From Candidatus Bathyarchaeota archaeon B24 (GTDB lineage Archaea; Thermoproteota; CALKCG01; B24), in NCBI GenBank assembly GCA_001593865.1, contig LUCB01000014.1, positions 1 through 37,081 on the forward strand: a stretch of 37,081 nucleotides of DNA. Direction: 5' to 3'. This document shows positions 10,300 to 33,011 of this stretch, in pieces (the stretch's first letter is position 1; each line of letters starts with the position of its first letter). Made by a program: the position numbers and the translations under genes. The notes under the pieces are model-generated. The model worked only from the letters and a program-made list of their open reading frames with translations. It was not told the DNA's origin and did not search any database.

Positions 10300-10345
10300 T
10301 GCTTATAATTATTTAACAATAAGGACCTTTAATAGGGGTTTACAT

Positions 10346-11452: not shown

Positions 11453-11468
11453 CAAGGAGAAGTGGTCG

Positions 11469-12140: not shown

Positions 12141-12163
12141 AAATAGGATGGGTCTGAAAAAGT

Positions 12164-12520: not shown

Positions 12521-12526
12521 ATCCTC

Positions 12527-13471
12527 TCACCTCCCGTATATGAGGGTGCTAAGTCTCCGGACGTTCTCTAGCCCGACAACCTCCGTCTCTAGTAGAGGGA
12601 CCTCTACTATCGGCAGGTCTCCGAACTCCTTCTTAACAAGGTTGATATACTTCTCCTGTAGGAGCCTACGTTTAAGGAAGAACCCCTCCTTACAATACTC
12701 CTTCGGAAGGACAGAGTTTATGAAGACCCCTTTAACCCGGATACCATATGGCTTTAAGCTATCCTGAATCCTCCTGACCTCGTAGACCGGTAGCATCTCA
12801 GGCTGGGTCACGAGGAAGTAGACAGTCTGTTCGGAGGCGAGCTTCTTTATAGCCGCATAGCTCTCATCCCTAAGCTTTTCTAGAAGCTTGAGCTCGGCGA
12901 CTTTACCCGTCAAATCGACTATCTCCCTTTTAGCGGCTATAGCCATCTCCAAATTGTAAACATATCGCCATGGATAGTTCACCATCTCGAGGTTGTGGTA
13001 GCCCGGAGCGGTGTCGAAAACTATGGCGTCATACCTATCGGTGTTCATGTAGTGGATGAAGACGTTGTAGGACGCGGTTTCGCATGGGAGAACCGGGTTC
13101 CTCTCCCAATACTCCTTGAGAAACCTTATCTCAGCTTCGCTTATCCTCTCACCGGTCAGGTCTTTAAGCTCCTCTATCCTCCTCAAGACCTCGAGCTGAT
13201 GCTGCCTTATGCTCTCCTTCGGGTCCACGTTGATTATCCAGAGGTTCTCGACCTCCGGGATCTTGGTCTCCTCACCGCCGATCTCCCTCTGAAATATATC
13301 GTTCTGGCTCTTCTGGGTATCCGTCGACGCCAGCAAAGTCTTGTAGCCATGCTCAGCAAGCCAGACAGCGGTGGCAGCCGCTAAGCTACTTTTCCCGACG
13401 CCGCCCTTACCGCCGAAGAATATGAACTTCGGCCCCTCTCTCGGAAGAATCACCTCTCCTAACGAGGACAC
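12527..13471 (-). CDS. ArsA/GET3-family ATPase, divergent
   Basis: A 314-residue single-domain SIMIBI ATPase. Walker A is GGKGGVGKSS at 20-29; switch-like STDTQKSQNDIF (50-60) replaces the usual STDPAHSLSDAF, and the family signature DTAPTGHTLR is altered to DTAPGYHNLE (153-162). A lone Cys130 (in NPVLPCETAS) is near where E. coli ArsA has a metalloid-binding cysteine. It may energise export or deliver a cargo; tail-anchored protein targeting (GET3) is less likely given the altered signature and missing CxxC. The start is a GTG at 13471 with AGGTGG 9 nt upstream. First gene of a two-gene operon. Confidence 0.8.
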   Translation of the reverse strand: MSSLGEVILPREGPKFIFFGGKGGVGKSSLAAATAVWLAEHGYKTLLASTDTQKSQNDIFQREIGGEETKIPEVENLWIINVDPKESIRQHQLEVLRRIEELKDLTGERISEAEIRFLKEYWERNPVLPCETASYNVFIHYMNTDRYDAIVFDTAPGYHNLEMVNYPWRYVYNLEMAIAAKREIVDLTGKVAELKLLEKLRDESYAAIKKLASEQTVYFLVTQPEMLPVYEVRRIQDSLKPYGIRVKGVFINSVLPKEYCKEGFFLKRRLLQEKYINLVKKEFGDLPIVEVPLLETEVVGLENVRRLSTLIYGR

Positions 13472-13523
13472 TACTTAACACCACCTGGTAGATATGAATC
13501 CGATCCTAGAATAAAAATATTCG

Positions 13524-13548
13524 CTTTATAAAGTTTAACTTTAAAAAG
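13524..13548 (-). promoter_or_regulatory. Promoter element similar to that at 7179-7203
   Basis: The stretch starts with the palindrome CTTTATAAAG (13524-13533), followed by TTTAA and CTTTAAAAAG. It aligns without gaps to the inverted repeat at 7179-7203 with 20 of 25 identical bases. On the minus strand the CTTTATAAAG arm would set a start site near 13500, giving a short leader with the AGGTGG ribosome-binding site of the ArsA-like gene. It may be a shared operator or simply two AT-rich TATA boxes. Confidence 0.4.
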
Positions 13549-13655
13549 AATAACTATAACTTGGTAATATTGCTGGTAGCTCAGGCAGGTTATTAAAGGG
13601 TGTATCGTTAATATAGGTGCTCTATGTGTAAGGTTTTGGGAACAGGGGTAGTCGG

Positions 13656-13943
13656 ATGGATGGCGTAAGGGTTAAGGTGAGGTTCTACGCGCGTTTAAGG
13701 GAGCTTATAGGCGTTGAGGAACTTGTGTTAGAGCTTGATGATTCCGATTTCAGCTTTCTGATTGATAAGTTGAGGGAGGTTTTAGGTCGTAAAGCAGAGT
13801 ACATTTTCGCCGATGACCTAGCACCCCGGCACGGTCTTCTATTCTCTGTGAACGACAGGCTGATACATCCATCGAGACTTAAAAGCCTAGAACTGAAAGA
13901 CAGAGACATAGTAGACATCATGCCCCCTCCCTCCGGCGGCTGA
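13656..13943 (+). CDS. MoaD/ThiS-family ubiquitin-like sulfur carrier
   Basis: A 95-residue beta-grasp protein ending in the diagnostic Gly-Gly (94-95, PPPSGG), which an E1-like enzyme adenylates to form a thiocarboxylate for molybdopterin synthesis, or conjugates to proteins as an archaeal SAMP. VKVRFYARLRELIGVEEL at the N-terminus is typical of MoaD. No moaE, moeB or other cofactor gene is nearby, so molybdopterin, tungstopterin and SAMP roles cannot be separated. It is divergent from the ArsA-like operon. Confidence 0.88.
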   Translation: MDGVRVKVRFYARLRELIGVEELVLELDDSDFSFLIDKLREVLGRKAEYIFADDLAPRHGLLFSVNDRLIHPSRLKSLELKDRDIVDIMPPPSGG

Positions 13944-14021
13944 GACACTAATGGTAAAGTAGCTGTCACGGCTAGGGAGCTAAACCTCGTTATCTGGGTC
14001 TGAAACTAGTCTATACGGTCT

Positions 14022-14291
14022 TCAATAGGGCGGCGGGTGGAAGATCGAGATCAAAGTCTCCGTATGTAGTACGTTGGGATGTTGCTCGATCATCTCGTAG
14101 ATTATTCTCTTAAGGTCTTGAAGGTCCTTTGCCTCTACCACGAGGACGGCGTCGTATCTTCCCAATACTGAGTTGGCGATCTTGACGCCTCTGATCCTCC
14201 TAGACCTCACTATCTCCTCTGAGGTGCCGGGCTTCATGGTGACCAAGACGAAGGCGCGGATATATCTACGTCTCAAACCACTATACGACAC
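14022..14291 (-). CDS. Stand-alone Lrp/AsnC ligand-binding (RAM) domain protein, copy 1
   Basis: About 89 residues consisting only of the alpha-beta RAM/AsnC C-terminal domain that binds amino acids in Lrp regulators: strand FVLVTMKPG, helix, then GRYDAVLVVEAKD and HTETLISIF. There is no helix-turn-helix, so it cannot bind DNA alone; such small proteins oligomerise with Lrp partners or act as stand-alone amino-acid sensors. I chose the GTG at 14291 because AGGTGG sits 6 nt upstream; a TTG at 14297 would touch that site. The gene upstream is a paralogue 39 nt away on the same strand. Confidence 0.83.
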   Translation of the reverse strand: MSYSGLRRRYIRAFVLVTMKPGTSEEIVRSRRIRGVKIANSVLGRYDAVLVVEAKDLQDLKRIIYEMIEQHPNVLHTETLISIFHPPPY

Positions 14292-14330
14292 GTACAACCA
14301 CCTGTCTAAACGAATCCAACGGTTTACCTC

Positions 14331-14567
14331 TTAGGTCTCGGATAACACTATAGATGTCTCCGTGTGAACTATATCAGGGTCTCTACCGATAACCTTGTAG
14401 ACAAGCTCGTTTATACTCTCTAGGTCTGGGGCTTCGACCAGGACTACGGCGTCGAACCTACCATAGATAGAATCCGCCTGGATCACCCCCTTCACCTTAC
14501 TTCTGATTCTCCTGACAACCTCCTCAGAAGTACCAGGCCTAGTCCTTATGAATATATACGCCCTCAC
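14331..14567 (-). CDS. Stand-alone Lrp/AsnC ligand-binding (RAM) domain protein, copy 2
   Basis: A 78-residue RAM domain with the same landmarks as copy 1 (RPGTSEEVVR, GRFDAVVLVEAPD, HTETSIV). It starts at a GTG (14567) right at the domain boundary, so no DNA-binding part has been lost from this frame. The two copies are about half identical by eye and may form a hetero-oligomer. AT-rich promoter sequence (AAAGTAAAATAAAT on the minus strand, around 14600) lies upstream. Confidence 0.85.
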   Translation of the reverse strand: MRAYIFIRTRPGTSEEVVRRIRSKVKGVIQADSIYGRFDAVVLVEAPDLESINELVYKVIGRDPDIVHTETSIVLSET

Positions 14568-14976
14568 GTTCTACACCAAGATAGCTATAACACCTGGAAT
14601 TTATTTTACTTTAACCCCCTCTCTGATCGATTATTCCCCAAATTGAGGAGCTCTTAGAGGCCTACCGGAATCACCGTGTATCTAACCTGGTATAGCCCTC
14701 TCAGGGCTCTTATGCGGCTTATGAGACCCACGACCTCCTCTATTTCACCCTCGGCTATGAGAACCTCTACGCAGTAGTCTCCACGACAATATTAACCACT
14801 TCTTTCGACTCCCTTCGCTCTATGAGATAGACACGTTTCCCCTGCGATATACCTGCATAGTCGTTACTAAGCTTACACTAAGGTATATCCAGTGAAATTA
14901 TAACTTAGTTAGTTTTCTTGAAGCAAAGGCTTGCTGGAACATAGTAGCATGGAAGAAAAAAGGAGTCTATTTGACC
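14568..14976. other. 409-nt stretch without an intact gene
   Basis: Holds the promoter of the RAM-domain pair (about 14570-14620), the frameshifted NikR-like remnant (14654-14877), and a short AT-rich tail with an A6 run (14955-14960) beyond the end of the oxidoreductase gene. No RNA gene or repeat seen. Confidence 0.6.
14654..14877 (-). pseudogene. Remnant of a NikR-like C-terminal domain, frameshifted
   Basis: On the minus strand, one frame (14877 to the TAG at 14767) encodes YAGISQGKRVYLIERRES then KEVVNIVVETTA; a second frame (14791 to the TAA at 14654) encodes CRGDYCVEVLIAEGEIEEVV, then RALRGLYQVRYTVIP. Read across a single frameshift near 14770-14785 they resemble the ligand-binding domain of NikR (strand - helix - Cys-x-Glu strand - GD/GEIEE - LRG - terminal strand). 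There is no ribbon-helix-helix DNA-binding part upstream, and a stop codon (14878-14880) precedes the fragment. I read it as a decayed nickel-type regulator; an unrelated ACT-like fragment is possible. Confidence 0.38.
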
Positions 14977-16065
14977 TTACTCCTTTTGTTTAAGCCATAA
15001 GTCTATCGGTTTATCCGCGTCCATTGTGAACGGTAGACTCACTTTCCTACCTACGGCTGCCGAGTAGTATCCAGCCATTATAAGCTCCATGACGACTCTC
15101 CCATCCTCCCCGGTGACGAGCGGCTTCTCGTCTCTTTTAACGCACTCCACGAAATGAGCCATCTCTTGTGGGAATCCATACTGCCACAGCTCATCCGGGA
15201 CGCAGTATGTCCATCCCCTTGTGGTCGGAGCCTTTTCGACGGCGTATCCATAGCCTCTTTCGCTGTACACCAGAAGCGAGGAGCCCATGAGTAGGTCTGC
15301 GTATATAACGCCCTCTGAGCCATAGAACTCCGCCTTATCGTCCATACCTCCCCTCCTAGCCCAGCTGTCCTCGGCTAAACCTGTGACGCCGCCTTCAAAC
15401 TCGACGATCGCTATGCTGTTATCCTCTCCCTGCGTCTTATCACCGTGAACCTCCCTCGAGAAGTGGCAGTAGATGCTCTTAGGTCTCCTCCTGTCTACGA
15501 CCCAGTAGAAGAAGCATAGCGCATGGCAGCCCATATCCATGAACACACCTCCCCCGGATTTTTCGACATCCCAGAACCAATCCGAGTGAGGGCCGAAGTG
15601 CTTCTCACTCTGCTTCATGAGATAGAGGCTTCCTATAGCCCCCTCGTCTATAAGCTCCTTAGCCCTAACGTATTTCGGGGCGAAGCAGAGCTCCTCGGCA
15701 TACATGAGCTTTACCCCGTACCTCCTACACGCCGATATCATTTGATCGGCTTGCTTAAGGCTCATGGCGAAGGGCTTCTCCATGATCACATGCTTCCCTG
15801 CCTCAGCGGCCTCCACACATAACTTCGCGTGGAGATAGTTCGGGACACCTATGCTCACAAGCTCGACCTCATCCATCTCAAGCAGCTTACGGTAGTCTGT
15901 GAAGTAGTTCTTAATCCCATGTTTCTTAGCGAAGGCTTTGACATGGCTAAGCGTCGGGGAAGCTACAGCCACGATTTCGGCGTCTCTACACCGTTTAAAC
16001 GCGTCTGCATGGATATCGGCTACGAATCCACTACCTATAATCCCGACACACACTCTACGAGACAT
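14977..16065 (-). CDS. Gfo/Idh/MocA family NAD(P)-dependent oxidoreductase
   Basis: A 362-residue sugar or cyclitol dehydrogenase of the Gfo/Idh/MocA family. The N-terminal Rossmann fold has GIIGSGFVADIHA (8-20); the hallmark EKP is at 96-98 within HVIMEKPFA; the C-terminal alpha/beta domain carries GGGVFMDMGCH, whose histidine is at the place of the family's catalytic histidine. Likely substrates are sugars, inositols or their nucleotide forms, but none can be chosen. It stands alone, with an AT-rich promoter to its right (ATTTAATACTAAACG, about 16078-16092). Confidence 0.9.
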   Translation of the reverse strand: MSRRVCVGIIGSGFVADIHADAFKRCRDAEIVAVASPTLSHVKAFAKKHGIKNYFTDYRKLLEMDEVELVSIGVPNYLHAKLCVEAAEAGKHVIMEKPFAMSLKQADQMISACRRYGVKLMYAEELCFAPKYVRAKELIDEGAIGSLYLMKQSEKHFGPHSDWFWDVEKSGGGVFMDMGCHALCFFYWVVDRRRPKSIYCHFSREVHGDKTQGEDNSIAIVEFEGGVTGLAEDSWARRGGMDDKAEFYGSEGVIYADLLMGSSLLVYSERGYGYAVEKAPTTRGWTYCVPDELWQYGFPQEMAHFVECVKRDEKPLVTGEDGRVVMELIMAGYYSAAVGRKVSLPFTMDADKPIDLWLKQKE

Positions 16066-16258
16066 GGGTAGACCACAAATTTAATACTAAACGTAGATAG
16101 TTAAATCTGCTTGCCACCAATCTATGCGGTCGGTCTTCAAGTTTCCAGAGGCATAGCCCCCTCTCCCACACCATTCGAACTCTCTACAGAAATTTTTTGT
16201 TTAAATACAGGCGATCAAAATCGTTCATCGACGAGCCGTTAAGCCTGAGTATACAGGG

Positions 16259-16573
16259 ATGATCGTCTCCGACTCCGTTAAGCAGAGGCTTTTGGAGTTC
16301 GCTAAGCAGAAGGGCTACAGGTCTGTGAACCAATTTTTAGAAACATGGTTAGGGGTATACCCCGATGGAATTAAAAGAACTCTGAAAACATGCTCTTCTC
16401 AGAAACGGGATGCGGGGGACGGGATTCGTAGGACGGCGTCAAAGAGAAGGGGTGCTACAGGCCGTGATGGGTACTTCCTTCTCCCAGATAAACCCTGCAC
16501 CTACCTTAACCACACTAACCGTAAGCATCTCTATGCGGAGCTAGCGGCAGAGGGGGTACCTAAAAATTTTTAA
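16259..16573 (+). CDS. Hypothetical protein with ribbon-helix-helix-like N-terminus
   Basis: A 104-residue basic protein. The first 32 residues (VSDSVKQRLLEFAKQKGYR, then SVNQFLETWL) have the strand-helix-helix pattern of ribbon-helix-helix antitoxins and regulators; residues 45-75 are Lys/Arg-rich and low in hydrophobics, the rest is featureless. TATA-like TTTAAATAC lies at 16200-16208, about 55 nt upstream of the ATG. The composition of the second half is poor for a folded domain, so the true gene could end earlier through a frameshift. Family not recognised. Confidence 0.45.
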   Translation: MIVSDSVKQRLLEFAKQKGYRSVNQFLETWLGVYPDGIKRTLKTCSSQKRDAGDGIRRTASKRRGATGRDGYFLLPDKPCTYLNHTNRKHLYAELAAEGVPKNF

Positions 16574-16609
16574 CGTAGTTGACGTAGGAAGTATCGCAAG
16601 GGTTCCTCC

Positions 16610-17146
16610 ATGAAGCTCAGCACCCCAAGTAGGAAGATTCTTCACGCTGTAGTTGTCGTGGTCTTGGTCGTGGAGGCAGCTGGCTTAGCTTGGCTGTTCC
16701 TCGAGTACAGCGGCTTGAGCGACGAGCTTAGGTCTTCGGCCTGGAGCTTAGCGACTAAGAGCTTGCGTTACCTAGAAGGGGATGTAGAGCTCCTCATATA
16801 CCTCCTTGACGAAAACCCGGACATACACTTGATGGCGCTAACGGCTAGGAACGCTGCTGAACATGCATCGGTAACTGCGAGCGCTCTCTCCACACTCCAC
16901 GATCACGGAGGAAGGGACCACACGAAAACCTACGTATTAGGGGTAGCCGTAAGCAACATAGAAGCATACCTAAACACCCTCGCAAACAACCCCGATAAGG
17001 TGGCATCGCTGAAGGAGAACAAGGAGCTGCTTGAAGAAGCCGCATCGATCCTAAAGGAAATAGCGATGAAATATAGACAGGACCCAGAAGACATACCGAA
17101 GTCACTAATATCGAAACTACACAAAATATCAGAACAGCTACATTAA
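16610..17146 (+). CDS. Hypothetical protein with one N-terminal membrane segment
   Basis: A 178-residue protein: a short basic N-terminus, a hydrophobic segment at about 9-30 (ILHAVVVVVLVVEAAGLAWLF), then an extracytoplasmic helical domain of about 145 residues with amphipathic heptad-like stretches near the C-terminus. No catalytic motif or known family is visible. It follows the previous small gene by 36 nt and belongs to the variable patch left of the tRNA. Confidence 0.6.
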   Translation: MKLSTPSRKILHAVVVVVLVVEAAGLAWLFLEYSGLSDELRSSAWSLATKSLRYLEGDVELLIYLLDENPDIHLMALTARNAAEHASVTASALSTLHDHGGRDHTKTYVLGVAVSNIEAYLNTLANNPDKVASLKENKELLEEAASILKEIAMKYRQDPEDIPKSLISKLHKISEQLH

Positions 17147-17336
17147 CGACGATGTAAATAGCACTTTAGCAGCCTCTATCCGACCCGAGCCAGAGGGGGA
17201 GGAGGCCGTCGAGTACAGCGTTATGGTTAATTGGTTTAGAGTTTTAGGCGTGTGGTATTACAGGATCAGAAACCTCAGGCCACTACTACCCGTATCAGCT
17301 CAAGACAATACTGGAGGCTCGACGGATAGCGGTGCG

Positions 17337-17801
17337 TTAGCGGTAGTCTTCTAGGAAGAGGAGCTTGTAGTTTCTCTCCAGCTCGCCTATGTTTCTAAGC
17401 ATCTCCCTTTCACGTTTCTTGAAGACAGCTGTACAGCCGTATAGCTTCGAGACCGCTAGCACGTAGCAGTCCGTTAGGGCGAGGTTGTAGGCTAGCTTAA
17501 CCCCGCCAGCCTCAAGGGCCAGCTGGACGCCTTCGCCGACCACCCTGGCTGTTGGAAGCCTGTAAAGCCATTCCACGAGCTTCGAGGCGACAGCCTCAGC
17601 CCTCTCAACGCCCAGCGTGCGGTATATCTTAGTGGCTACGTAGAAGGTTTCAGCTAGAACAGCGTGCGGTATGAGTATCTCCAGCCTCCCGGCTAGGGCT
17701 GCGGAGAAGACGGCCTCCGCCTGCTCGTGAAGCTCACCCCTTAGGTCTATGTACTCTATGACGACGCTTGTATCTATGGCCGCCCTAGCCAACCTGGACA
17801 C
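17337..17801 (-). CDS. vapC: PIN-domain ribonuclease toxin (VapC)
   Basis: About 154 residues from the GTG at 17801, which overlaps the antitoxin gene by 17 nt. PIN-domain acidic residues: Asp10 in AAIDTSVVIEYID, Glu51 in AVLAETFY, Asp111 in LALTDCYVLA. The last acidic position, normally TRD, here reads FKKRERE, so Glu131 would have to serve or the site is weakened. VapC toxins cut tRNA or rRNA and are neutralised by the VapB partner. A longer reading up to 17891 exists but would run through the antitoxin gene without a domain to match. Confidence 0.9.
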   Translation of the reverse strand: MSRLARAAIDTSVVIEYIDLRGELHEQAEAVFSAALAGRLEILIPHAVLAETFYVATKIYRTLGVERAEAVASKLVEWLYRLPTARVVGEGVQLALEAGGVKLAYNLALTDCYVLAVSKLYGCTAVFKKREREMLRNIGELERNYKLLFLEDYR

Positions 17802-22051: not shown

Positions 22052-24139
22052 ATGCGGTTTAGGGAGACGCTTACGGATATACTGGAGCCCTTCACCCGTT
22101 TAAAGGAGCTTAAAATCTCCCGTGAAAGGGCTAAAAACATACTTCTGCTATCCGCTTTAGGTCTGATCTTCGCGGCGGCGTTCCTGATTAGAATACTACC
22201 GGCTAAATGGGGTGTATACCTACACGAGTTCGACCCATACCTACAGTATAGGGTGACCAAGAGGATCATCGATAAAGGCTTTACCTCGTGGCTGAACTGG
22301 AGAGACTACAAATCGTGGTATCCCTACGGTAGGGATATGACCCGGAGCATATACCCCGGCTTACCTATGACGGCCGCGGTCTTCTACCTAGTGGCCAACG
22401 CCATAGGGGTTTCGATACCGCTTCAGGAGTTCCTATGCTACTTCCCCCCGATCATGGCAGTGTTAACGTGTATGGTAGTGTTCTACCTGGGTAAGGAATA
22501 CGGTGGAATACCTATGGCCCTTCTCTCGGCGCTGTTCATGGCTGTATGCCCCGCCTACATATCTAGGACCCACCTGGGGTGGTTCGACGACGAGACGGTC
22601 GGGATCTTCGCCCTATCCCTCATATCGCTGTTCTACGTGAGAACCGTAGACCCCCAGAGAAGCCTAAGAGAGTCGCTGATATACGGAGTCTTGACGGGGC
22701 TCACGCTTGGATATCTCTTCGCATCCTGGGGTACGGCTAGATACGCTTTAGGGCTCATAGCGTTGACGACTCTCCTGATAGCGCTGCGAGACTATCGGCC
22801 TAAACACGTCGCGACATACGGGGTCATCGTATGTCTCGGCCTCGCCATAGCCGTTAACGTCCCCAGGCTGGGTATAAAAGTCGTTAGAGAGATCACGGGA
22901 GTAGCCTCCTTAGGGGTTTTTGTGCTTCTAGCTTATGGGCTTCTGCTTCGAAGGGTTAGAGGAAACTGGAAGCGGCTGATTATGACGGCCGGGTTTATAG
23001 GGTGTGGGGCTCTGATACTGTATGGTGCGTGGTCGCTAGGCTACATAAGCGGGCTACCGACGAAATACTACGCGGTTTTAGAGCCTCTATCGAGACTTTC
23101 GATACCGCTCATACAGTCTGTCGGCGAGCATAGGCCTGCGACCTGGAACAGCCTATTCACGAGCCTCGGCTTTCTCCTAGCCTTCATCCCGGTTTACGTT
23201 TTCATGGCGGTTCAAGAGCTCGACAACAAACATCTATTCCTGTTAACCTATCTCTTGACATCCCTTTATTCAGCGGCTTCCTACGTCAGGCTCGAGCTTG
23301 TGTTGGCAGCTCCTGCGTGTCTAGCGGGAGCATATGTAATATATAGGCTCTCCTCGTCGATGGCTAGGATGGTTAAGTTTAGAACGGCCACCCGAAAACT
23401 GGCCGGTGTTTTAAGTAAGGAGGCTGCCATCGCTTTCACTATACTCCTCCTCTTAGTGTCTGTGGCACCTTTGGTGTACTTCGGGGTGAGGACGGCTAAT
23501 ACCCCTGTTACCATAGCAGCATCGTCGATCCCGGTCGGCGAGTTCAGGGGCGACTGGCTTGAGGCTTTGAAGTGGCTCAAGGAGAACGTTCCAGACGACG
23601 CCGTGGTCATGTCGTGGTGGGACTATGGATACTGGCTGACGATAGTAGGCAACAAGACCACGCTGGCGGACAACGCGACCCTTAACTCTACCCAGATCGC
23701 GGTCATAGCCCGTACCTTCATGTCCCCTGAAGAAGAGGCGTTGAAGACCATGAAGCGGTACCATGTGAATTACGTCGTGTTGTTCGTGGACTTCATAGTC
23801 TACAGCTACGGAGGATACTACTATTACATCCCAGAGGGCTTCGGGGAGGAGAACAAGTTCATATGGATGATCCGTATAGCGGGTTTAAACGAGTCGGACT
23901 ATATAGTCGACGGGAAACCGACGATGAACTTCACAGAATCGCTGATAGGTAAGCTTATCCCCTTCAAGTACTACGAGATGGGCGGAGGCATATATATAGG
24001 ACCAAGCTACTACCGCTCCAAATACATAGAGCCGGTATTCTACTCCAGCAGTCTAGAGACCGGCGGCTACAACGGAAGGGTCACAGGCGTCGTCATATAC
24101 AAAGTAACCTATCCTCCTGAAGAAAAAACGGCTGAATAG
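22052..24139 (+). CDS. aglB: Oligosaccharyltransferase STT3/AglB
   Basis: Transfers a lipid-linked glycan to Asn in N-x-S/T sites of exported proteins. The 695-residue protein has an N-terminal membrane domain of about 13 helices beginning near residue 30, with the metal-binding acidic loop HEFDPY (58-63), a second acidic loop HLGWFDDE, and a C-terminal extracytoplasmic domain with the catalytic-pocket motif WWDYG at 522-526. Several N-x-S/T sites are visible in its own C-domain (for example NKT, NAT, NST after 530). Its likely substrates would include exported proteins such as the anchored protein of the neighbouring operon. Downstream the strand switches. Confidence 0.96.
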   Translation: MRFRETLTDILEPFTRLKELKISRERAKNILLLSALGLIFAAAFLIRILPAKWGVYLHEFDPYLQYRVTKRIIDKGFTSWLNWRDYKSWYPYGRDMTRSIYPGLPMTAAVFYLVANAIGVSIPLQEFLCYFPPIMAVLTCMVVFYLGKEYGGIPMALLSALFMAVCPAYISRTHLGWFDDETVGIFALSLISLFYVRTVDPQRSLRESLIYGVLTGLTLGYLFASWGTARYALGLIALTTLLIALRDYRPKHVATYGVIVCLGLAIAVNVPRLGIKVVREITGVASLGVFVLLAYGLLLRRVRGNWKRLIMTAGFIGCGALILYGAWSLGYISGLPTKYYAVLEPLSRLSIPLIQSVGEHRPATWNSLFTSLGFLLAFIPVYVFMAVQELDNKHLFLLTYLLTSLYSAASYVRLELVLAAPACLAGAYVIYRLSSSMARMVKFRTATRKLAGVLSKEAAIAFTILLLLVSVAPLVYFGVRTANTPVTIAASSIPVGEFRGDWLEALKWLKENVPDDAVVMSWWDYGYWLTIVGNKTTLADNATLNSTQIAVIARTFMSPEEEALKTMKRYHVNYVVLFVDFIVYSYGGYYYYIPEGFGEENKFIWMIRIAGLNESDYIVDGKPTMNFTESLIGKLIPFKYYEMGGGIYIGPSYYRSKYIEPVFYSSSLETGGYNGRVTGVVIYKVTYPPEEKTAE

Positions 24140-24148
24140 TCGATTCTT

Positions 24149-24259
24149 TTAACGAAGCCTTCTATAGCATCGTTGGCATACCACCGAGCCATCCGGCTTT
24201 TTCACTACTTTCGTTTCACCACAATAGGGACAGTACATCAGGTACAGGGGTTCTTCCAC
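24149..24259 (-). CDS. Very small zinc-ribbon protein at the end of the FtsZ-like operon
   Basis: About 36 residues from a GTG at 24259 (29 from the ATG at 24238). It has CPYCGE, then after 15-20 residues CQRC, followed by a basic YRRLR end: a minimal zinc ribbon. It lies 41 nt after the last long gene of the minus-strand operon. The spacing of the cysteine pairs and the clean end support a real peptide, but at this length chance cannot be ruled out. Confidence 0.45.
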   Translation of the reverse strand: MEEPLYLMYCPYCGETKVVKKPDGSVVCQRCYRRLR

Positions 24260-24300
24260 ATCCTTTCTTCGTTTTCTTCAGGCGGAGGCCCCTTACGCAC

Positions 24301-25038
24301 CTATTTAACAGTTTCACGTTTTTCCTCCATGAAGGTTCTTTGTTGATGAGAAAAACTTAAACGAGAAGAAATTCGCTCAACAATTTTATCTATGGATTTT
24401 TCTACAAAAGCCATAACACTATCCATTATCTCTAAGATTTTCCCATAATCATAAGACTCGAGTAGAGAATCCTGCTTAGACACAGCCTCTTTGAGAATTT
24501 TTAATACCTCCTCTCTTCTTTCTGGACTTATCGACTCTAAAGACTTTGTAAAATCAGAAACCTTCTCAAAGATCGACTTTTTTAGAAGTTCAAAGACATC
24601 TATAGGATCTTTCACTTTTATGATATCTTCCGGAAGATAATATGCAGCATCGACATAATGTATATCGTTAGCATATCTTGCATACATAGTATACCATAGC
24701 CTCAATTTCAAAATTTCAAAAAGTGCGGGTTTTATGGCTGAGTTTAAAAGTCTAACATCTCTTCTAATCTTTTCGTCTTTCTCCCGCTTTTTAAGAATTT
24801 CTTCAACAGTATTTTTGAGCAGGTTATACCTACTCCAGTCAGGTATTTTAAATAAAAAGTTTTTATATTGAACTTCCCTTGTTTCATCATTAAAAACAGC
24901 GTTAGATGCAAACTCCTCCAAACTAAATATTCCTACTTGTTCCGTGAAGAACATTCGTTTTACCCTTAAAGTTAAAACTACTCCATCTGTACTGATAATA
25001 TACTTCTTTTTGTTATGTTCAGCAATTATCTTGAACAT
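24301..25038 (-). CDS. Hypothetical soluble protein of the FtsZ-like operon
   Basis: A 245-residue protein with no signal peptide or membrane segment. Residues 1-70 alternate short beta strands (FKIIAEHNKKKYIISTDG, VVLTLRVKRMFF) and end in an amphipathic helix, a pattern compatible with a small PH-like or beta-sandwich adaptor domain. The rest (75-235) is helical and highly charged, with a likely coiled coil at about 150-225. It begins 1 nt after the preceding stop, so it is coupled. The DNA here is visibly richer in A and T than the rest of the operon. I do not recognise the family; a cytosolic adaptor for the polymer or for the membrane protein is a guess. Confidence 0.7.
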   Translation of the reverse strand: MFKIIAEHNKKKYIISTDGVVLTLRVKRMFFTEQVGIFSLEEFASNAVFNDETREVQYKNFLFKIPDWSRYNLLKNTVEEILKKREKDEKIRRDVRLLNSAIKPALFEILKLRLWYTMYARYANDIHYVDAAYYLPEDIIKVKDPIDVFELLKKSIFEKVSDFTKSLESISPERREEVLKILKEAVSKQDSLLESYDYGKILEIMDSVMAFVEKSIDKIVERISSRLSFSHQQRTFMEEKRETVK

Positions 25039-25039
25039 A

Positions 25040-26029
25040 TTATTTCAACCCCAAAAATTCAAGAACCTCGATAGCTGGTGAAAGGTCTTCTACCACATTC
25101 TTAATAGAGAAGCATTTTTCGCTAATATATCTGTATTTTTCCGGATCAAGCCTTTTTACTCCTAAAAAGAGCACAATTCTTCTTTTATCTCCATATCTAC
25201 AGATTATATCTAAATCTACCAGGTTTTTAAAGTTCAAAGCCCATTCCTGAAATTCATGAACCACCTTATCTTCGTTCTTCTCGAACCCTGTCCCATAAAC
25301 ATATAGAAGCGCATATTCCACGTCTTCTCTCTTGTAGCCGGTCAATACCGTATATTCGATTATTCTAAGCATACCCTTCAGACTATCGAAGACTTCGTCG
25401 CTTACACTGTACATAATCGCGGGTATGAACAATCGTATCTGAAACTTCTTCAACTTCTCATAAACTTCTTCGTTTAACATGGTCGGAAGAACAGTGGATA
25501 AGAGGTCTACGATCACTTGACGCGGTGTTTTACGTTTACCTGAGTCTATAAGGATCATCTCATTCCATAATCTATCGTGGTCTATCAACACGGTTACGCC
25601 GCACCGATCTACAAGCGGTGAGCCGCATAATGTCGCATATATCCTATACGGTGTCTCGTCTCTGGATGGTAAAGTGCTCACGTAGACGTTCAGTTTGCCA
25701 GGATACCTCTCTTTAACAATAGATGTCATAAGTCTTACAAGCCTATCTCCTGCCACACCAGCCACCGCCACTTTTTTAACGTGTTTAAACCCTAGGCAGG
25801 CTATCCACGTGCCGACAACTTTTCTAGCTTCGTCTTCACCTAATTCCTCTACATCGATAAATAGGTCGCCGTTCTCGACCCTAGTTCTCTCATCCTCTAA
25901 TACGTTGAAGATGTCGTTGCCGCTATGTGCTCTTGTGAGGTTCACCGCTATCCCGAGTCTCCTAGGTATGGTGAAACGCCTCTCCGGTAGTCTCAGTATA
26001 CCCATCAGCTCCTCGTCCAGTTCGGTCAC
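25040..26029 (-). CDS. Predicted degenerate FtsZ/tubulin-fold protein
   Basis: A 329-residue soluble protein. I see the FtsZ order of elements: strand VAVAGVAGDRLVRLM (87-101) where the T4 loop GGGTGSG should be, strand YVSTLPSRDE (116-125) where FtsZ has VTKPFxFEG, then CGVTVLIDHDRLW (143-155) matching FtsZ's VDTLIVIPNDKLL, and a C-terminal domain with ALLYVYGTG (240-248) and DIICRYGDKRRIVLFLGVKR (274-293), matching INITGG and VRVTVIATG. The glycines for nucleotide and the acidic T7 loop are missing, so it should not hydrolyse GTP. Its GTG start overlaps the upstream stop by 4 nt. This is pattern-based inference without a search. Confidence 0.6.
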   Translation of the reverse strand: MTELDEELMGILRLPERRFTIPRRLGIAVNLTRAHSGNDIFNVLEDERTRVENGDLFIDVEELGEDEARKVVGTWIACLGFKHVKKVAVAGVAGDRLVRLMTSIVKERYPGKLNVYVSTLPSRDETPYRIYATLCGSPLVDRCGVTVLIDHDRLWNEMILIDSGKRKTPRQVIVDLLSTVLPTMLNEEVYEKLKKFQIRLFIPAIMYSVSDEVFDSLKGMLRIIEYTVLTGYKREDVEYALLYVYGTGFEKNEDKVVHEFQEWALNFKNLVDLDIICRYGDKRRIVLFLGVKRLDPEKYRYISEKCFSIKNVVEDLSPAIEVLEFLGLK

Positions 26030-28482
26030 CCCCTCGGCATTATAACACCAAACTGGTTTACCGAATACTCGTAATTCTTCTGGACGAACAGGTTGACGAA
26101 AACCGTTAGATGGCTCTCTGTCAGAGGTATGTCTCTGACGTCGATCTTTCCGTATCGTCTGATAGCGTCTTTAACGTATCTCTCGAGAATCGGGAAGATG
26201 CTCGCGACATCTGCTAGAACCTTATCTTTCTTGAGGGACTCGTCAAGCCCTCTTCTGAGTTCTATGTACATCGTTAACGTGGAGAATAGTTCATCTCCGC
26301 TTCTCCAGTTGAGTAGAGCATCTCTCATTCTTTCAAGTTCCTTCGCATAGGCGTTTGACTCTGTTTTTGTGAAAACAGACTCTATACCTGAACCTTTTAG
26401 TATATCTTTGATTAAACTATTTAACCTATCGATCCTATCTAGGATCTCGTCGATTTCAGCGGTCATATCCGCGATTTTCTCATCTACCTTTTCGACGAAA
26501 ATGTCGACGTTAAATATATTCTTAGATTCTTCGGTTAATTCGATGCCGAGTAGCCTAGAGAGCTTCTCCAGAAGATCCAAGTATTTCTTCTCATAACTGT
26601 TGCTAAGGCTTATGAGCGTTCTTCTTATGAATATATCTAGGCTAAACGGGTCTTCCTCTATACTATCTATGCTGATAGATGGGTGGGTTAGATGAGCCTC
26701 CGGTATGAGTCTTCCAAGCGCCTCTAAAACACTGTTATATCTCAATATGATGACCTTTGCAAAGTCTAGAAAGTTATCTCTAACCACCGCGTATTTTCCT
26801 AGAGCTCCGTCGAAATCCAGCTCCTCAACCTTGACCTCTGACGGTTTAAGCAACTTCTCGATGTCGGCCCAAGAGTGTTTCTCCTTAAACTTCTCCAGGG
26901 CTGTATCTAGTTTAAACCCTACTTCTTCAAGCTCGTTAGCGATTGTGCTGTGAAGCTCTATAAGCGCCTTAATCCTGAGCTTTACATCGGTCTCCAACCT
27001 GTTCATGAGCTTTTTCAAGTTCGAGTGTTTATCCCTGATACTAGCCATTATGCTTTCTAAAATGGGGGCCGTCGTGACGGTTTCGGCTCTTTTCACGTCG
27101 CTTTCGACACTCTCGAAGAGTTTTCTGGCGACTATAACCTCAGACGGCTCTATCCCCGCCTTCGTCCGAAGGGCCTTACATTTTTCAGAGAAATGTTCAT
27201 ATAGCTTTTTGAAAAGCGCACCTACATCCATTATCTCAGTCTTAAGCCTTAAAACCTCTCTAAGGTTGTCTTCGTAGTAATCTCTTAGAGAGATCAGGGC
27301 GCCGAAGACGATCGTGAAAGACATCGTGTACTGGAAGCCGCCGCCTGCAAATGTCAAGTCCGTAGTATAGGAGAGAGGTGCTCCTAAAGCTTCTACAAGA
27401 TAAACTGTTATCAGAAAAAAGAGTACCACCGCGAAGAGGCTGGAAAACGCCTTTATTCTTGGATAGATTTTCTCAAGCCTAACGGCGATCAGGTCTCTGA
27501 TAAACCCTCCGAGGACCAAGGAGACTCCTATGACTCCCCCTATCAGGAGAACTATTATGAGAATTGTGAGGATATAGCTTAGTACAAAGCGCATGAACAT
27601 GGCAATTTCATTAGAGTCGTCGGTCAAAGCATGCATCCAATATGAGGCGAAGCTAGGTGAAAATATCGACTCCGCATCTATATCGATAAAGCATCCATGT
27701 GTTCTGCAGTAGACTCTCTTTAAGTCGTCCAGCCCCTCAGCCATCACCTGGTTTTCGCCATAAGTAGTCTTTGAAACACCGAAGACCCTAGCCATGAGCT
27801 CCCAGAGGCTTTGAGCCGGAGTGATCAGTGGAATAGGTCTGTCTCTAGAGCCTCTTCCAAGCAGGTAGGAGTATGAGCCATGAAAGCTTGTGCTCGGTAT
27901 GGAGAAAACCCGGTATACTGGCTGGTTTTCCACGAAATGTGGATTGGCTATATTCATGGCGATTATGAAAGGCGTACATATCATCGTAAACACCAGCGCT
28001 ATCGAAAGAGCGGAGCGGACCTTCATCCTCTCGAACGCCATGGTAAGTATCAGCACCGGTATGGAGAATATGAAGAGTGTCGGATGAAGGGGAAGAGACG
28101 CTGCTAGAAACGTTAGAAAGACAGTGCTCGTTCTCGCGTTAAGTAGCGTGGCTGACGAAAACGCTATGAGCACCAATAGCAGCTGTATCGGTAGGAGAAG
28201 CTGCAGAGTCGAATAGACTGAGGCTACATTCAAGATTATGACCGTGACTGCGAATAGGTAGAAGATCTTGACCGCAGCCCCTTCTCTTCCTTGAAAAACC
28301 AGTATACCTATCATTAAGGATATCACTAACGGTAGGACGTAGTTTCCTCCTATAGGGAGGAGAGGGTAGATGAAAAAGATGGCGTAAGACGAGATGAAGG
28401 CTATTACACTATCTAATATCCTATATATACGGTCTAGTAGAGCTTTCTCAGGTAGGCTAAGGTGATCACCCTCCTTCTTCAA
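26026..28482 (-). CDS. Polytopic membrane protein with long cytoplasmic helical tail
   Basis: An 818-residue protein. Hydrophobic segments lie at about 22-42, 47-64, 72-90, 94-113, 118-150, 158-177, 297-327, 345-366 and 384-399. Between 181 and 296 is a soluble, probably external loop with two cysteines (259 and 264) that could form a disulfide. Residues 400-818 are charged and mostly helical with coiled-coil character, probably cytoplasmic, and could bind the FtsZ-like filament. The start is a TTG at 28482 (AGGGG six nt upstream), overlapping the GTPase gene by 17 nt. I recognise no named family. It is the best candidate for the membrane hub of the system. Confidence 0.8.
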   Translation of the reverse strand: MKKEGDHLSLPEKALLDRIYRILDSVIAFISSYAIFFIYPLLPIGGNYVLPLVISLMIGILVFQGREGAAVKIFYLFAVTVIILNVASVYSTLQLLLPIQLLLVLIAFSSATLLNARTSTVFLTFLAASLPLHPTLFIFSIPVLILTMAFERMKVRSALSIALVFTMICTPFIIAMNIANPHFVENQPVYRVFSIPSTSFHGSYSYLLGRGSRDRPIPLITPAQSLWELMARVFGVSKTTYGENQVMAEGLDDLKRVYCRTHGCFIDIDAESIFSPSFASYWMHALTDDSNEIAMFMRFVLSYILTILIIVLLIGGVIGVSLVLGGFIRDLIAVRLEKIYPRIKAFSSLFAVVLFFLITVYLVEALGAPLSYTTDLTFAGGGFQYTMSFTIVFGALISLRDYYEDNLREVLRLKTEIMDVGALFKKLYEHFSEKCKALRTKAGIEPSEVIVARKLFESVESDVKRAETVTTAPILESIMASIRDKHSNLKKLMNRLETDVKLRIKALIELHSTIANELEEVGFKLDTALEKFKEKHSWADIEKLLKPSEVKVEELDFDGALGKYAVVRDNFLDFAKVIILRYNSVLEALGRLIPEAHLTHPSISIDSIEEDPFSLDIFIRRTLISLSNSYEKKYLDLLEKLSRLLGIELTEESKNIFNVDIFVEKVDEKIADMTAEIDEILDRIDRLNSLIKDILKGSGIESVFTKTESNAYAKELERMRDALLNWRSGDELFSTLTMYIELRRGLDESLKKDKVLADVASIFPILERYVKDAIRRYGKIDVRDIPLTESHLTVFVNLFVQKNYEYSVNQFGVIMPRG

Positions 28483-31087
28483 TGGCTTCCCCTCGGGCTA
28501 AGATAACCCTGAAACCATGCTCCAGTAGAAACGATGAGAACATGCTTTTATCTATTACCTGCTCCGCGTTGACTTTTATCGACTCGTAGATCTCCAGGTC
28601 CTCCGGTCTGGCTTTGGCACATATAACCATGAACTGTATGGTCCAGGGGTCTAGGCTCTCTATGGGTCTTATGTTGACCCCTATCCCCGCCTCTACGGAT
28701 GAGTATATCGCTAGGGTATTCCTCAACGCCTCTTCTAGGTCCTTGTCCCATATTATCGGCGTAGCCACTATGGCCCATATGACGTCGCTCCTATAGGTGT
28801 CTTTGAGACCTAGGATCCCAGGGACGGCGAACGTCTTTATGTAGCTTCTCAAAATATCCTTAAACCTGCTTAGGTTTATTATGTTCATGATCTCCGTCGA
28901 ATCCTTAAGCTTATCCTCCTCCTCCTTGAGTATCACGTCTAAGATCTTAAGCCTCTCCTCCTCTGTAAGCTCTATAACCCGCTCATAGTACCTCTCAGAC
29001 TTAGTGGCCTCGCTCATCTTCCTAGCGTAGTCGATCTCGATCATGCTCAGCTGGTTAAGCAGCTTTCTATAGTCGCTGTTGAGGTCGACGCTATTGATTA
29101 TATCCTTCACGGCGGAAGACATTTCTTCTATATGCTCTCTGATGGAGTTGTAGTGTTCAAGCTCTGTTCTAAGCCTACTTATCTCCTCCCTAAGGTCAGC
29201 CATCTCGGCATTCAACCTCTTCCTTTTTCCCGTAAAGTCAAACCTGATCTTAGATAACGCCCTCTCTAACTGGTCTAACCGGGTCTTCCTCTCAGCCAGA
29301 TGTCTCTCGATGCTCTCCAGGTTTATAAGCACCATACCTCTCTTAGCGTCTATAGCCCTTTTAGCCATGATCAGCGAGGTCAAAGCCTGGTCTATGGTTC
29401 TAAACTCTTTACTAGGTTTCTCAGCCATCGTTAGCACGAGCTTATACAAAGCTATCAAGAGGTTCGTGTAATCGTTAACCGTCTTGGTAAGCTCCTCGTC
29501 CGTTTTACTGTATATGATCCTGAGCTCTTCGGCTATATGCCTCGCCTTAAGGTAGGAGTCGAGAAACTTCAACGTACACTTGATAAACATCATGGTAGTC
29601 AGTATCCTACTAAGGTAGATCTTCTGCCTAGAAGAAAACTCCTTAACGGTCTCGAGTCCTAAGCCAAGTTCCCTAACATGCTGCTCGATGGAATCTATGT
29701 AGTCCTTCGAATAGTTAGCAGCCGGCTTGAAACAGTACTCGACGACTTCCTTAACCTTATTCAAATAAGACCTAGCGATCGTCCCTTCTTTGAAACTCAT
29801 GGACCTGAGAGGAAGTATCAGCATCTTCGTTAACTCAGCAAGCGCGAGCTCGAAAGCCTTAAGGTTTTCTGAGAACTCCGCCTCAAGCCTCCCCCCTCTA
29901 TGCGAAATATCTGAGATATACCTCTCTACATCCGTGTCTAACCTATTCTCGACGATGTACCTTCTTAGATAGGTCTTAAGCTCTTCATAGACCCTATCGA
30001 CGATCGAGAGGGCTTTTTCGACGATCTTCACCTTATGCTCTATTAAATTGCTCAGCAGATTCGCCTCCTCGAGGATCATCTTGGAAAGTTCGACATACTC
30101 GTCCACGGGGAACCTTATCTTAAGGAGCCCTATGAGGTTTAGGAACGAGTCTCCCGGGTCTACGCTTGAACCTATAGACGCCACCAGGTCGGCGATGTCG
30201 AAGCTAGAAAGCATCCTTATGATCTCGACTATCGCATCGTCTATCTGCTTCTTAGCCTCGATTAGTGTGCCTTCTTTGGTATGCGTCACCGCGACCTGTA
30301 ACGGTATGAACAACGCAAGGCTGAACGGGTTCTTATACTTCTCCCCATATCTTTTAACGATCTCTTTGTTAAGCTCTAGGTTGAATATGTACCTAAGCTC
30401 TTGGAGGGCTAAAAACGGCGATATTCCCTTGGCAAGCGAGTCGTCCAAGGTGGCTGGTAGAACCGAAAGCATTATTATCGGTACACCGCTACCTAGCTTC
30501 TCCCTCAGATGCCTACTTAGGTCGAATAGCACCCCGCTGCCCGTACCACCGCCCAAGCCGAAAACTATGTACACCAGAGGCGAAACGATCGACGAGAAGA
30601 CCCGGTCCCTAAATTCGTTCATGTAATTGCCAAGCTGCGCCAGGTGATAGTAGTTTAACGCGTAAACCGCCTTAGCCAAGGCCCTCTGCCTACCTGCCCC
30701 ACCTGCGAGCGAAGGTATTTTAGTCCTGAAGGTTATCCAGCTTCTGTAGTTCTTCGCTTTTATCCCCTCTTTCAACAGGTACCTAGGATACATGGACATG
30801 AAGTCGAATAGGATGTCTGGGCTTGAGAACTTGATGGTTAACGCCCTTAGCCTAATCCTATCTAAGGGGATGCCGTTCATCCGCATCTCTTCTTGAAGCT
30901 TCAGATACTCGTTCTTAAGCTCCATTATATCTCCGTCGGCTATATCTATGGCTAGAAAGGCGGGTCTGAAATCCTCCAGGTTAAAAAGCATCTCCTTAAA
31001 ACTCGGGTGTCTCAGAAAGGTCGTTATCACGTTAGCGCCGGTTCCACCCAAACCGACTATGTGAAACTGACTATGAAGCTTCATCAT
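28466..31087 (-). CDS. Large FtsZ/tubulin-like GTPase (FtsZl-type)
   Basis: An 873-residue protein of the FtsZ-tubulin superfamily. T1 loop GLGGTGAN at 12-19, the T4 signature FGLGGGTGSG at 176-185, and a T7-like SSVDPGDS at 307-314 comparable to FtsZ's NVDFAD; all the pieces for GTP binding and hydrolysis seem intact. Residues about 330-740 are a long helical, coiled-coil-rich insertion, and about 755-860 (SDVIWAIVATPIIWD ... IQFMVICAKARP) look like the C-terminal activation domain. Twice the length of FtsZ (about 350-400), so it is not the division protein. Large FtsZ-like proteins have been described in bacteria and archaea and proposed to remodel membranes. ATG overlaps the upstream stop (ATGA); a second ATG follows directly. 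Confidence 0.88.
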   Translation of the reverse strand: MMKLHSQFHIVGLGGTGANVITTFLRHPSFKEMLFNLEDFRPAFLAIDIADGDIMELKNEYLKLQEEMRMNGIPLDRIRLRALTIKFSSPDILFDFMSMYPRYLLKEGIKAKNYRSWITFRTKIPSLAGGAGRQRALAKAVYALNYYHLAQLGNYMNEFRDRVFSSIVSPLVYIVFGLGGGTGSGVLFDLSRHLREKLGSGVPIIMLSVLPATLDDSLAKGISPFLALQELRYIFNLELNKEIVKRYGEKYKNPFSLALFIPLQVAVTHTKEGTLIEAKKQIDDAIVEIIRMLSSFDIADLVASIGSSVDPGDSFLNLIGLLKIRFPVDEYVELSKMILEEANLLSNLIEHKVKIVEKALSIVDRVYEELKTYLRRYIVENRLDTDVERYISDISHRGGRLEAEFSENLKAFELALAELTKMLILPLRSMSFKEGTIARSYLNKVKEVVEYCFKPAANYSKDYIDSIEQHVRELGLGLETVKEFSSRQKIYLSRILTTMMFIKCTLKFLDSYLKARHIAEELRIIYSKTDEELTKTVNDYTNLLIALYKLVLTMAEKPSKEFRTIDQALTSLIMAKRAIDAKRGMVLINLESIERHLAERKTRLDQLERALSKIRFDFTGKRKRLNAEMADLREEISRLRTELEHYNSIREHIEEMSSAVKDIINSVDLNSDYRKLLNQLSMIEIDYARKMSEATKSERYYERVIELTEEERLKILDVILKEEEDKLKDSTEIMNIINLSRFKDILRSYIKTFAVPGILGLKDTYRSDVIWAIVATPIIWDKDLEEALRNTLAIYSSVEAGIGVNIRPIESLDPWTIQFMVICAKARPEDLEIYESIKVNAEQVIDKSMFSSFLLEHGFRVILARGEAIEEGG

Positions 31088-32019
31088 TTCTCAATCCTCC
31101 GAAGCCTCTCGGCGATATCTGAAAGATTTTTCGCAAGCCTAGTATCGATTTTGTCAAGAGAGGTTTTCACAGCCGCTATATCGACGAGAGCAGAGTCGAC
31201 TATGTGCTTAACATACGCATTCTCTCCTCTAGCCCTAGCATACATCGCAAAGCCCACGAGCGTTAGGATGCCGAGAACCACAGACGTAGCCGCCAAACCA
31301 TAGGTGAGCATGGGGCTCGGGGGTTTAGGAAACTCCAAGCTTAAAAGCGAATCCACGATCGATATAGCGTATTCTGTTAAACCCGCCTCGTTGAGCCTGT
31401 TCGATTCGTCGATGACCGCATCGACTATGCTTCTGTACTCAGGTGGTATATCGGCTGACTGAAGCTCCTTAACCTTCGTCTCATAATCGTAGACTTTAGA
31501 GGACGTGAGCCTAAAGGTCACGCTGCCGACGGGATTACCCTCGAACATGATGGAAACGAGAACATAGCTATCCTTCACGTCGTAGATGTGGTAGCTAGCA
31601 CCGTTAGGTGCATTAATCGTGTAAACCACTATGTTTTCCGACGGTATCCTAAATTTAACCTTGAGCCTAAGCTCTCCCTTGAACACCCTAAACGTTATCG
31701 TCCTATCCGCCAGCTCTTTCATGGTTTCCTCGTCGACGCCTGCATAATCGTTAGTTATCTCCCAGAAGGGGGTCGTCGGGGTTAGAGGCTCATGATTACT
31801 CGGGATCTCTACGCTAAAGCGTTTGTCGGTTAAGTTGAAGGGAACGTTAATCACCATCTCGACCTCGTAGTCTGTGTCTGCAAATATCGTATCGTCGACT
31901 GGTTTATTCGCGCCTACGAACTCATAGGACGTCAGCCAACTCTCTTGACATAGGGAGGTTGAAGCTAGAGCCGCTATAGCCATTAGGAATAGTATTATCA
32001 ACAATTTTTTAGAGACCAT
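31084..32019 (-). CDS. Exported protein with C-terminal membrane anchor, first gene of the FtsZ-like operon
   Basis: About 311 residues. The N-terminus (MVSKKLLIILFLMAIAALAS) is a signal peptide; the next ~210 residues form a beta-rich external domain with one NLT glycosylation site; a single membrane helix lies at about 238-261 (YGLAATSVVLGILTLVGFAM), followed by a ~50-residue cytoplasmic tail that is helical (LVDIAAVKTSLDKIDTRLAK ... ERLRRIEK). The topology puts the tail within reach of the GTPase. I use the ATG at 32019; a TTG at 32031 is possible. No family recognised. Its stop overlaps the GTPase start by 4 nt. Confidence 0.8.
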   Translation of the reverse strand: MVSKKLLIILFLMAIAALASTSLCQESWLTSYEFVGANKPVDDTIFADTDYEVEMVINVPFNLTDKRFSVEIPSNHEPLTPTTPFWEITNDYAGVDEETMKELADRTITFRVFKGELRLKVKFRIPSENIVVYTINAPNGASYHIYDVKDSYVLVSIMFEGNPVGSVTFRLTSSKVYDYETKVKELQSADIPPEYRSIVDAVIDESNRLNEAGLTEYAISIVDSLLSLEFPKPPSPMLTYGLAATSVVLGILTLVGFAMYARARGENAYVKHIVDSALVDIAAVKTSLDKIDTRLAKNLSDIAERLRRIEK

Positions 32020-32095
32020 GACCTTTCTCAACTGGTTATTAGTTTTAGCCCCACGATCGTTTTAAGTTTTACCTAGAATTTCTTGTATGCACGGC

Positions 32096-32264: not shown

Positions 32265-33011
32265 ATGGTTCTACGTTTAAGGATGGCTGAGGCTAAGACC
32301 TGGAAGAACATGCTAAACTCGTTGTCAGCTTTGGTAGACGAGGTCTGTATAACGGCTGATGAGGAGGGGCTTAAGGTGAAGGCTATGGACCCCAGCCACG
32401 TATCTATGGTGGACTTCGAGTGGAGCCGAAGCGCCTTCGACGAGTATGAGGTCGATAAGCCGACGACCATAGGTTTGAATATCAAGGAGGTCTTGAAGCT
32501 TCTGAGGAGGATCAGCGGTGAAAGCATGGAGCTTAGCTTCGACGAATCTACCGGTAGGCTTGAGATGAAGCTTATCGGAAGGTATACCCGAAGGTTTACG
32601 GTATCCACCCTACAGCTTACGGGTGAGGAGATCCCGCCTCTTAGGGTCGAGTTCGACGTTTCGGCTAAGGTGACATCAAGCTGCCTTGAGAGAACCGTGG
32701 TCGACGCCGCTACCGTAAGCGATATACTGAAGTTTAAGGCTACCGAAGATGTATTCGTCATGGAGGCGAGCGGCGAGCTCGGAGAGGTTACGGTCGAGCT
32801 CGATAGGACTAGCGAAGCCCTCCTCGACCTACAGGTTAGACAGCCCAGCGAGGCGAGCTACAGCCTAACGTTTCTAGAGGATATCGTTAAGTCTGCCTCT
32901 GATCTGGCTGGGACGGTTAGCGTCGAGTTCAGCACGGATAAGCCGCTTAAACTGAACTTCGATGTGCTTCAGGGTAAGCTCATATACTATATAGCCCCGT
33001 ATGTGGAGTAA
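32265..33011 (+). CDS. pcn: DNA polymerase sliding clamp PCNA
   Basis: A 248-residue clamp subunit; the ring encircles DNA and tethers polymerases, ligase and FEN1. Two repeated beta-alpha-beta clamp folds are visible: residues 1-120 (LRMAEAKTWKNMLNSLSALV, GLKVKAMDPSHVSMVDFEW, the PCNA hallmark) and 125-248, ending KLIYYIAPYVE, the typical C-terminus near the PIP-binding pocket. The MVLRLRMAEAK start matches other archaeal clamps, so I keep the ATG at 32265. First gene of the cluster pcn-priL-priS-gins15, which recurs in archaea. Only one pcn is in the window. Confidence 0.97.
   Translation: MVLRLRMAEAKTWKNMLNSLSALVDEVCITADEEGLKVKAMDPSHVSMVDFEWSRSAFDEYEVDKPTTIGLNIKEVLKLLRRISGESMELSFDESTGRLEMKLIGRYTRRFTVSTLQLTGEEIPPLRVEFDVSAKVTSSCLERTVVDAATVSDILKFKATEDVFVMEASGELGEVTVELDRTSEALLDLQVRQPSEASYSLTFLEDIVKSASDLAGTVSVEFSTDKPLKLNFDVLQGKLIYYIAPYVE

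Follow-up and report, generated by a model that had tools for sequence, protein, structure and literature searches.

We analysed a window of 37,081 nucleotides, contig LUCB01000014.1 of Candidatus Bathyarchaeota archaeon B24 (assembly GCA_001593865.1, 1.73 Mb, 90% complete). Five long open reading frames (ORFs), named A, Z, M, D and E in that order, are tightly packed on the minus strand over positions 24301-32031 and are flanked by the STT3 and PCNA genes. A and Z overlap by 4 nt, Z and M by 17 nt, and M and D by 4 nt; D and E are separated by a 1-nt gap. A first-pass annotation, made from the sequence alone, had placed all five genes correctly, with this spacing, and had read them together with a tiny sixth ORF as one machine built around an FtsZ-like GTPase. 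The cluster has a GC content of 45% vs. 51-52% in the flanks. E is strikingly AT-rich (33% GC, with 29% GC at third codon positions), compared with ∼52% in the genes adjoining the cluster. The cluster is well beyond chance, since a genus-mate encodes a Z of 95% identity, the A-Z-M-D set recurs in many genomes, and each of the four genes has a deep alignment.

To describe the distribution of the genes, 398 genomes of the phylum were surveyed, with D counted as strong matches (E below 1e-70). Z was found in 21 genomes, D in 19, and A and M in 18 each, and every genome holding A, M or a strong D also has Z. The Fisher p values for co-occurrence with Z were ∼1e-28 to 1e-30 with kinship among genomes ignored. 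Because related genomes are not independent, the spread of the Z-bearing genomes over six families (f1, f4, f20, f55, f61, and f65) outweighs these p values. Among the Z-bearing genomes with an incomplete set, G023 has Z but no detected A, M or D, and in G284, G165, and G394 contig edges lie near Z. The cluster was seen in Bathyarchaeia, Desulfurococcales, Thaumarchaeota and on one Chloroflexi contig. Relatives that carry Z come from Bathyarchaeia, Thermoprotei and Thaumarchaeota, among others, which places the window genome in the TACK/Thermoproteota group. Two arrangements were observed: A-Z-M-D in the same direction (the window, L007, L033, L048, L053, L056, and L070), and A-Z followed by D on the opposite strand and then M (Bathyarchaeia, L034, and Desulfurococcales-type loci). 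The linkage survives the inversion of D, which argues for joint function. On the Chloroflexi-labelled contig (L070, positions 8974-17445), A, Z and M are accompanied by D and an extra 355-aa gene; no other bacterial copy of the module was found, and the neighbouring genes on this contig look bacterial by eye. A gene-neighbourhood check had been suggested with the first-pass annotation; in it the GTPase co-occurs with A, M and D, and the refuting case named there, companions occurring apart from the GTPase, was not encountered for these three. These data support A, Z, M and D as one recurrent genetic unit, and to this extent the proposal of a single machine is supported, whereas E and the tiny zinc ribbon turned out to be weak members (Table 1).

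Table 1. Genes and other features at the locus (window coordinates).
Feature	Position	Strand	Assignment	Basis
Gene A	31084..32019 (ATG start; 32031 if TTG start)	-	Predicted exported bitopic protein	ORF, AF2 model
Gene Z	28466..31087	-	873-aa FtsZl1/Tubulin_2 GTPase, predicted helical C-terminal part	PF13809, motifs
Gene M	26026..28482	-	Predicted polytopic membrane protein, helical tail	ORF, hydropathy
Gene D	25040..26029	-	Degenerate protein of the tubulin/FtsZ fold; GTP-binding loops not recognisable	Profile searches
Gene E	24301..25038	-	245-aa soluble, mostly helical protein; N-terminus beta-rich (by eye)	Homologue in L033/L051
Possible tiny zinc-ribbon ORF	24149..24238	-	29 aa from ATG MYCPYCGETKVVKKPDGSVVCQRCYRRLR; 36 aa from GTG at 24259	Translation
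STT3/AglB	22052..24139	+	Oligosaccharyltransferase, left flank, outside the system	PF02516 E 1e-42
PCNA	32265..33011	+	Right flank, outside the system	PF00705/PF02747

Z and D were judged by sequence profiles, and AlphaFold2 (AF2) structure models cover A and M. Z scores over the curated cut-off of PF13809 (Tubulin_2) with 45.1 bits vs. 27, and all 10 aligned relatives match this family at E ≤ 1e-5. FtsZl1 has been linked to PF13809 (PMC9871819). The T1 (GLGGTG) and T4 (GGGTGSG) loops of Z are intact, and a T7-like FDIAD is present. The T4 sequence is kept in 30 of 32 homologues (the remaining two have GGGSGSG or GGGSGGG), and D297 and D300 of the T7-like FDxAD/IDxAD motif are invariant in 32 of 32 distinct homologues. 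The FDxAD stretch is paired by hhalign with the LDYADL T7 loop of canonical archaeal FtsZ, so that the alignment to FtsZ extends through T7. The T1/T4/T7-like motifs and the FtsZ-like GTPase named in the first-pass annotation were thus recovered, and as the profiles place Z among the tubulin-like proteins, its concern about a non-tubulin fold did not arise. By sequence, Z is a tubulin-superfamily GTPase of the FtsZl1 family. In FtsZl1, Makarova and Koonin (2010; PMC2875224) were unable to identify the T6-H7 elements, T7 included. The T7 assignment given here, made from one profile alignment, is an advance on that work. Sequence matches further indicated a coiled-coil-type region at residues ∼540-710 and a conserved region at the C-terminus. 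In the Z tree, the window copy groups with L007 and L033, and next with L053 and L056; the Chloroflexi Z is on a long branch and its placement is unsure. Another FtsZl1-type locus with two tubulin-like proteins was noted on the Rhodococcus plasmid pN9T4-1 (L139, positions 8833-12468), where a small gene lies between two tandem Tubulin_2-type genes.

The first-pass annotation had also predicted a degenerate FtsZ-fold partner, and the D profile does match FtsZ, TubZ and tubulins in the PDB. A 13-member D profile without the Chloroflexi copy matched 4b45 at 5.5e-6, which is already significant; a 22-member profile with the Chloroflexi copy gave 4b45 as the best match at E 1e-6, the stronger score being due to the inclusion of that member. 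The 4b45 chain was deposited as cell division protein FtsZ and is presumably a CetZ. The larger profile matched 102 PDB sequences at E ≤ 0.1 and, among the 60 listed, all were FtsZ, TubZ or tubulin. The window D alone reached E 0.0028 against PF00091, below the cut-off and suggestive at most, and 6 of 13 D family members matched this family. From these profile matches, D is a degenerate FtsZ/tubulin fold. The Chloroflexi D has intact GTGSVG and GGGTGSG loops and scores 39 bits vs. the PF00091 cut-off of 33. In archaeal D, the T4 position mostly reads WDGxGSA or less (GVAGDRL in the window copy), and among the copies aligned an intact T4 loop was absent from archaeal D and present only in the Chloroflexi D. 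Since the Chloroflexi D keeps T4, the D family appears to derive from an active type. Archaeal D is best read, from its sequence, as a pseudo-GTPase descended from an active ancestor, and nucleotide binding by it is improbable. Searching DNA with a T4-type motif pattern returned no match and was uninformative.

Weak D matches (E 1e-5 to 1e-8) were obtained in 18 genomes lacking Z, which at first sight suggests D without Z. Six of the 18 loci were inspected. In five, the gene for an FtsZ-like protein lies in a common neighbourhood, thaumarchaeal in look by eye, and one encodes an FtsZ-like protein with GGGTGSG; A, M and E were not seen near any of the six. Because these are FtsZ-like neighbourhoods without A, M or E, the weak matches at these six loci were rejected as remote superfamily members.

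Hydropathy analysis of A indicated a signal-type helix and one anchor. The AF2 model (mean predicted local distance difference test score, pLDDT, 85.5) suggests a signal helix, a beta-sandwich ectodomain, a small helical bundle, an anchor at ∼240-263 and a cytoplasmic helical tail of ∼45 residues. A net positive charge follows the anchor in five of six copies checked, consistent with the positive-inside rule, and A is predicted to cross the membrane once. Profile searches with A gave no Pfam or PDB family match. M has ∼8 transmembrane segments and an extracellular loop by hydropathy, and is predicted to cross the membrane many times. Its helical tail of ∼430 aa, starting at about residue 390, was modelled confidently by AF2 and ends in a conserved helix-helix-beta element; the end of M is conserved from Bathyarchaeia through to Chloroflexi. 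No Pfam family matched M, and the matches of the M profile to PDB sequences were confined to helical and designed proteins. Hydropathy and AF2 therefore agree with the earlier description of an exported protein with one anchor and a polytopic protein with a helical tail. These companions had also been thought to be undescribed: we found FtsZl1 in few papers and no account of A, M, D or the module in them, most subscription papers and preprints lying outside this search.

Homologues of E were found only in L033/L051 (one other family), in the same position and at E ∼1e-20. Genes located 3' of M in other lineages were considered as counterparts of E and rejected, as homology was undetectable. 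Within families f4 and f61, 10 of 14 genomes with Z also have a separate gene family, A9, which is linked to the cluster in 3. E is a weakly supported, lineage-specific member that probably assists the system. The tiny ORF had no counterpart in L033, the closest full relative, and the genus-mate locus (L007) ends before its position; it is a weakly supported candidate gene. A zinc-ribbon component of the system is nevertheless plausible because fused zinc ribbons occur at other loci: at the N-terminus of D in four (L048, L053, L056, and L070) and at the C-terminus of Z in one (L008).

Beyond PCNA are the genes for the primase large and small subunits and then a Gins51-like gene, none of which is part of the system. 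In a sister genus (G002 and G003), STT3 and PCNA are adjacent, ∼1.08 kb apart, and the cluster is absent; a gene for a PIG-L deacetylase occupies the interval (L134). At one fixed junction the cluster is thus found in some genomes and missing from others, i.e., it is accessory. With regard to cell division, no protein of the window genome or its genus-mate was over the PF00091 cut-off (only Z matched, below it), and a SepF profile search of these two genomes gave no match. Two Snf7 (ESCRT-III-type) matches were found in the window genome and genus-mate. In the Bathyarchaeia G327 and G339, canonical FtsZ, SepF, Snf7 and the cluster are all present, so the cluster coexists with the division machinery. 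Since the window genome has ESCRT-III-type genes and FtsZ-bearing related archaea carry the cluster too, the cluster is unlikely to be the main division machine. We also noted five genomes (G023, G111, G183, G308, and G347) in which SepF was matched, canonical FtsZ was not detected, and Z, sometimes also D, gave the sole tubulin-family matches.

On balance, we favour reading A-Z-M-D as an accessory tubulin machine, anchored to the membrane and driven by GTP, in which one tubulin-fold subunit is active and the other inactive. From the families, motifs, linkage, co-occurrence and predicted topology described above, we infer its assembly, Z-D contact, tethering and function as follows. Z would bind GTP via T1/T4 and supply the T7-type acidic residues. 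In FtsZ and tubulin, such residues hydrolyse the GTP of the next subunit. With both elements present, Z would most likely assemble head to tail on the inner membrane face, and GTP hydrolysis across subunits would drive turnover. D would most likely be a non-hydrolysing partner within the Z assembly, or a cap at its end, and would control its length or turnover. Attachment of the assembly to the membrane may be through the cytoplasmic helical tails of A and M, and A may relay a signal or force to its extracellular beta-sandwich, which would bind an outside partner. The net effect would be an envelope that is locally scaffolded or reshaped.

Several observations weigh against this machine. The linkage is genetic and is no proof of a physical complex. 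One genome (G023) has Z with A, M and D not detected, and Z is therefore able to exist alone. In L048 (positions 9014-11670), Z is broken into two ORFs by a stop; this lineage may be losing Z, decay and a natural split both being possible. A disrupted FtsZl1 copy is also described in S. solfataricus, and the C-terminal parts of FtsZl1 are unlike those of polymerising FtsZ (Makarova and Koonin, 2010; PMC2875224). The membrane part of M was poorly modelled (block pLDDT ∼32-68 over residues 180-390), and the M model, with this poor part, matched no PDB fold. Foldseek searches with the A ectodomain returned generic adhesin-/pilin-type sandwiches; the template modelling scores (TM-scores) were low, so A is identified to fold class only.

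A doubtful alternative, though the strongest of those considered, is that Z acts as a GTP-driven switch without forming a filament. Z would then gate M, whose core would be channel-, transporter- or flippase-like, while A would serve as an extracellular receptor or adhesin and D as a pseudo-GTPase regulator, in a signalling or transport complex. The ∼8 transmembrane segments and extracellular loop of M and the adhesin-like fold class of the A ectodomain would suit such a complex, as would the absence of the FtsZ C-terminal domain from FtsZl1 (PMC2875224). However, M has no transporter family or fold match, with the caveat of its poor membrane model, and Z has invariant T7-type residues, whose action in FtsZ and tubulin is between subunits. 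An accessory cassette with a conflict or stress function (anti-phage or envelope stress) is improbable in our view, even though the presence of the cluster is patchy, the STT3/PCNA junction is variable with a PIG-L deacetylase in the sister genus, one copy is bacterial and the GC of the window cluster is below that of its neighbours. In PADLOC, only helical regions gave matches, and these were weak; the cluster has no recognised effector domain, nuclease or toxin, and no relatives were found in phage records or viral contigs (D was not part of the viral-contig scan). That independent genes are clustered by chance, with companions unrelated to Z, finds some room in the Z-only genome and the poor conservation of E, but is very improbable and for A, M and D essentially refuted, as these are always found with Z in the survey and their adjacency survives strand inversion and crosses phyla.

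The membrane-anchored machine that we favour was compared with known systems. FtsZl1 and its predicted membrane-remodelling role are not new (Makarova and Koonin, 2010; PMC2875224). The FtsZl1 systems of that paper resemble the window cluster in the N-terminal FtsZ-like GTPase domain of Z and in having membrane proteins nearby; their coiled coil and helical C-terminal part would have putative counterparts in Z. The paper gives vWA proteins, protein kinases, P-loop GTPases and OmpA-type proteins as typical of the operons, with further lineage-specific companions without recognisable domains. Domain searches of A, M, D and E found no vWA, protein kinase, P-loop GTPase or OmpA-type domains. The accessible text of the paper describes no second tubulin of degenerate kind, whereas the window cluster has D. 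Archaeal FtsZ with SepF (PMC8178401) likewise combines a tubulin-fold GTPase with a dedicated membrane tether, but Z is non-canonical, the candidate anchors are A and M, and SepF is unmatched in the window genome. CetZ is also an archaeal tubulin-family protein outside division; it differs in that archaeal D is without GTP-binding loops and Z carries a predicted helical extension of ∼500 residues. CetZ is not known to be co-encoded with genes resembling A or M. The presence of two tubulin-fold proteins, of which one is non-catalytic, is shared by alpha/beta tubulin, BtubA/B and other two-subunit tubulins, and BtubA/B are co-encoded too. A Z-D heterodimer is, by comparison, a putative one, and Z and D come from different branches. 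We tentatively suggest that the locus may encode an undescribed two-tubulin envelope machine, in which an active FtsZl1 and an obligate pseudo-tubulin (GTP binding lost in archaea) would work jointly, independently of alpha/beta tubulin, and would be coupled outward via two new membrane-protein families.

The pairing of a catalytic with a non-catalytic tubulin is otherwise best known from microtubules. If our reading is true, some archaea without detected canonical FtsZ would run a membrane machine of the tubulin family with both kinds of subunit. The long-orphan FtsZl1 family would gain a fixed partner set, A, M and D, with interactions that are directly testable, and the Chloroflexi D with its intact loop would open the question of how a tubulin becomes a pseudo-tubulin subunit.

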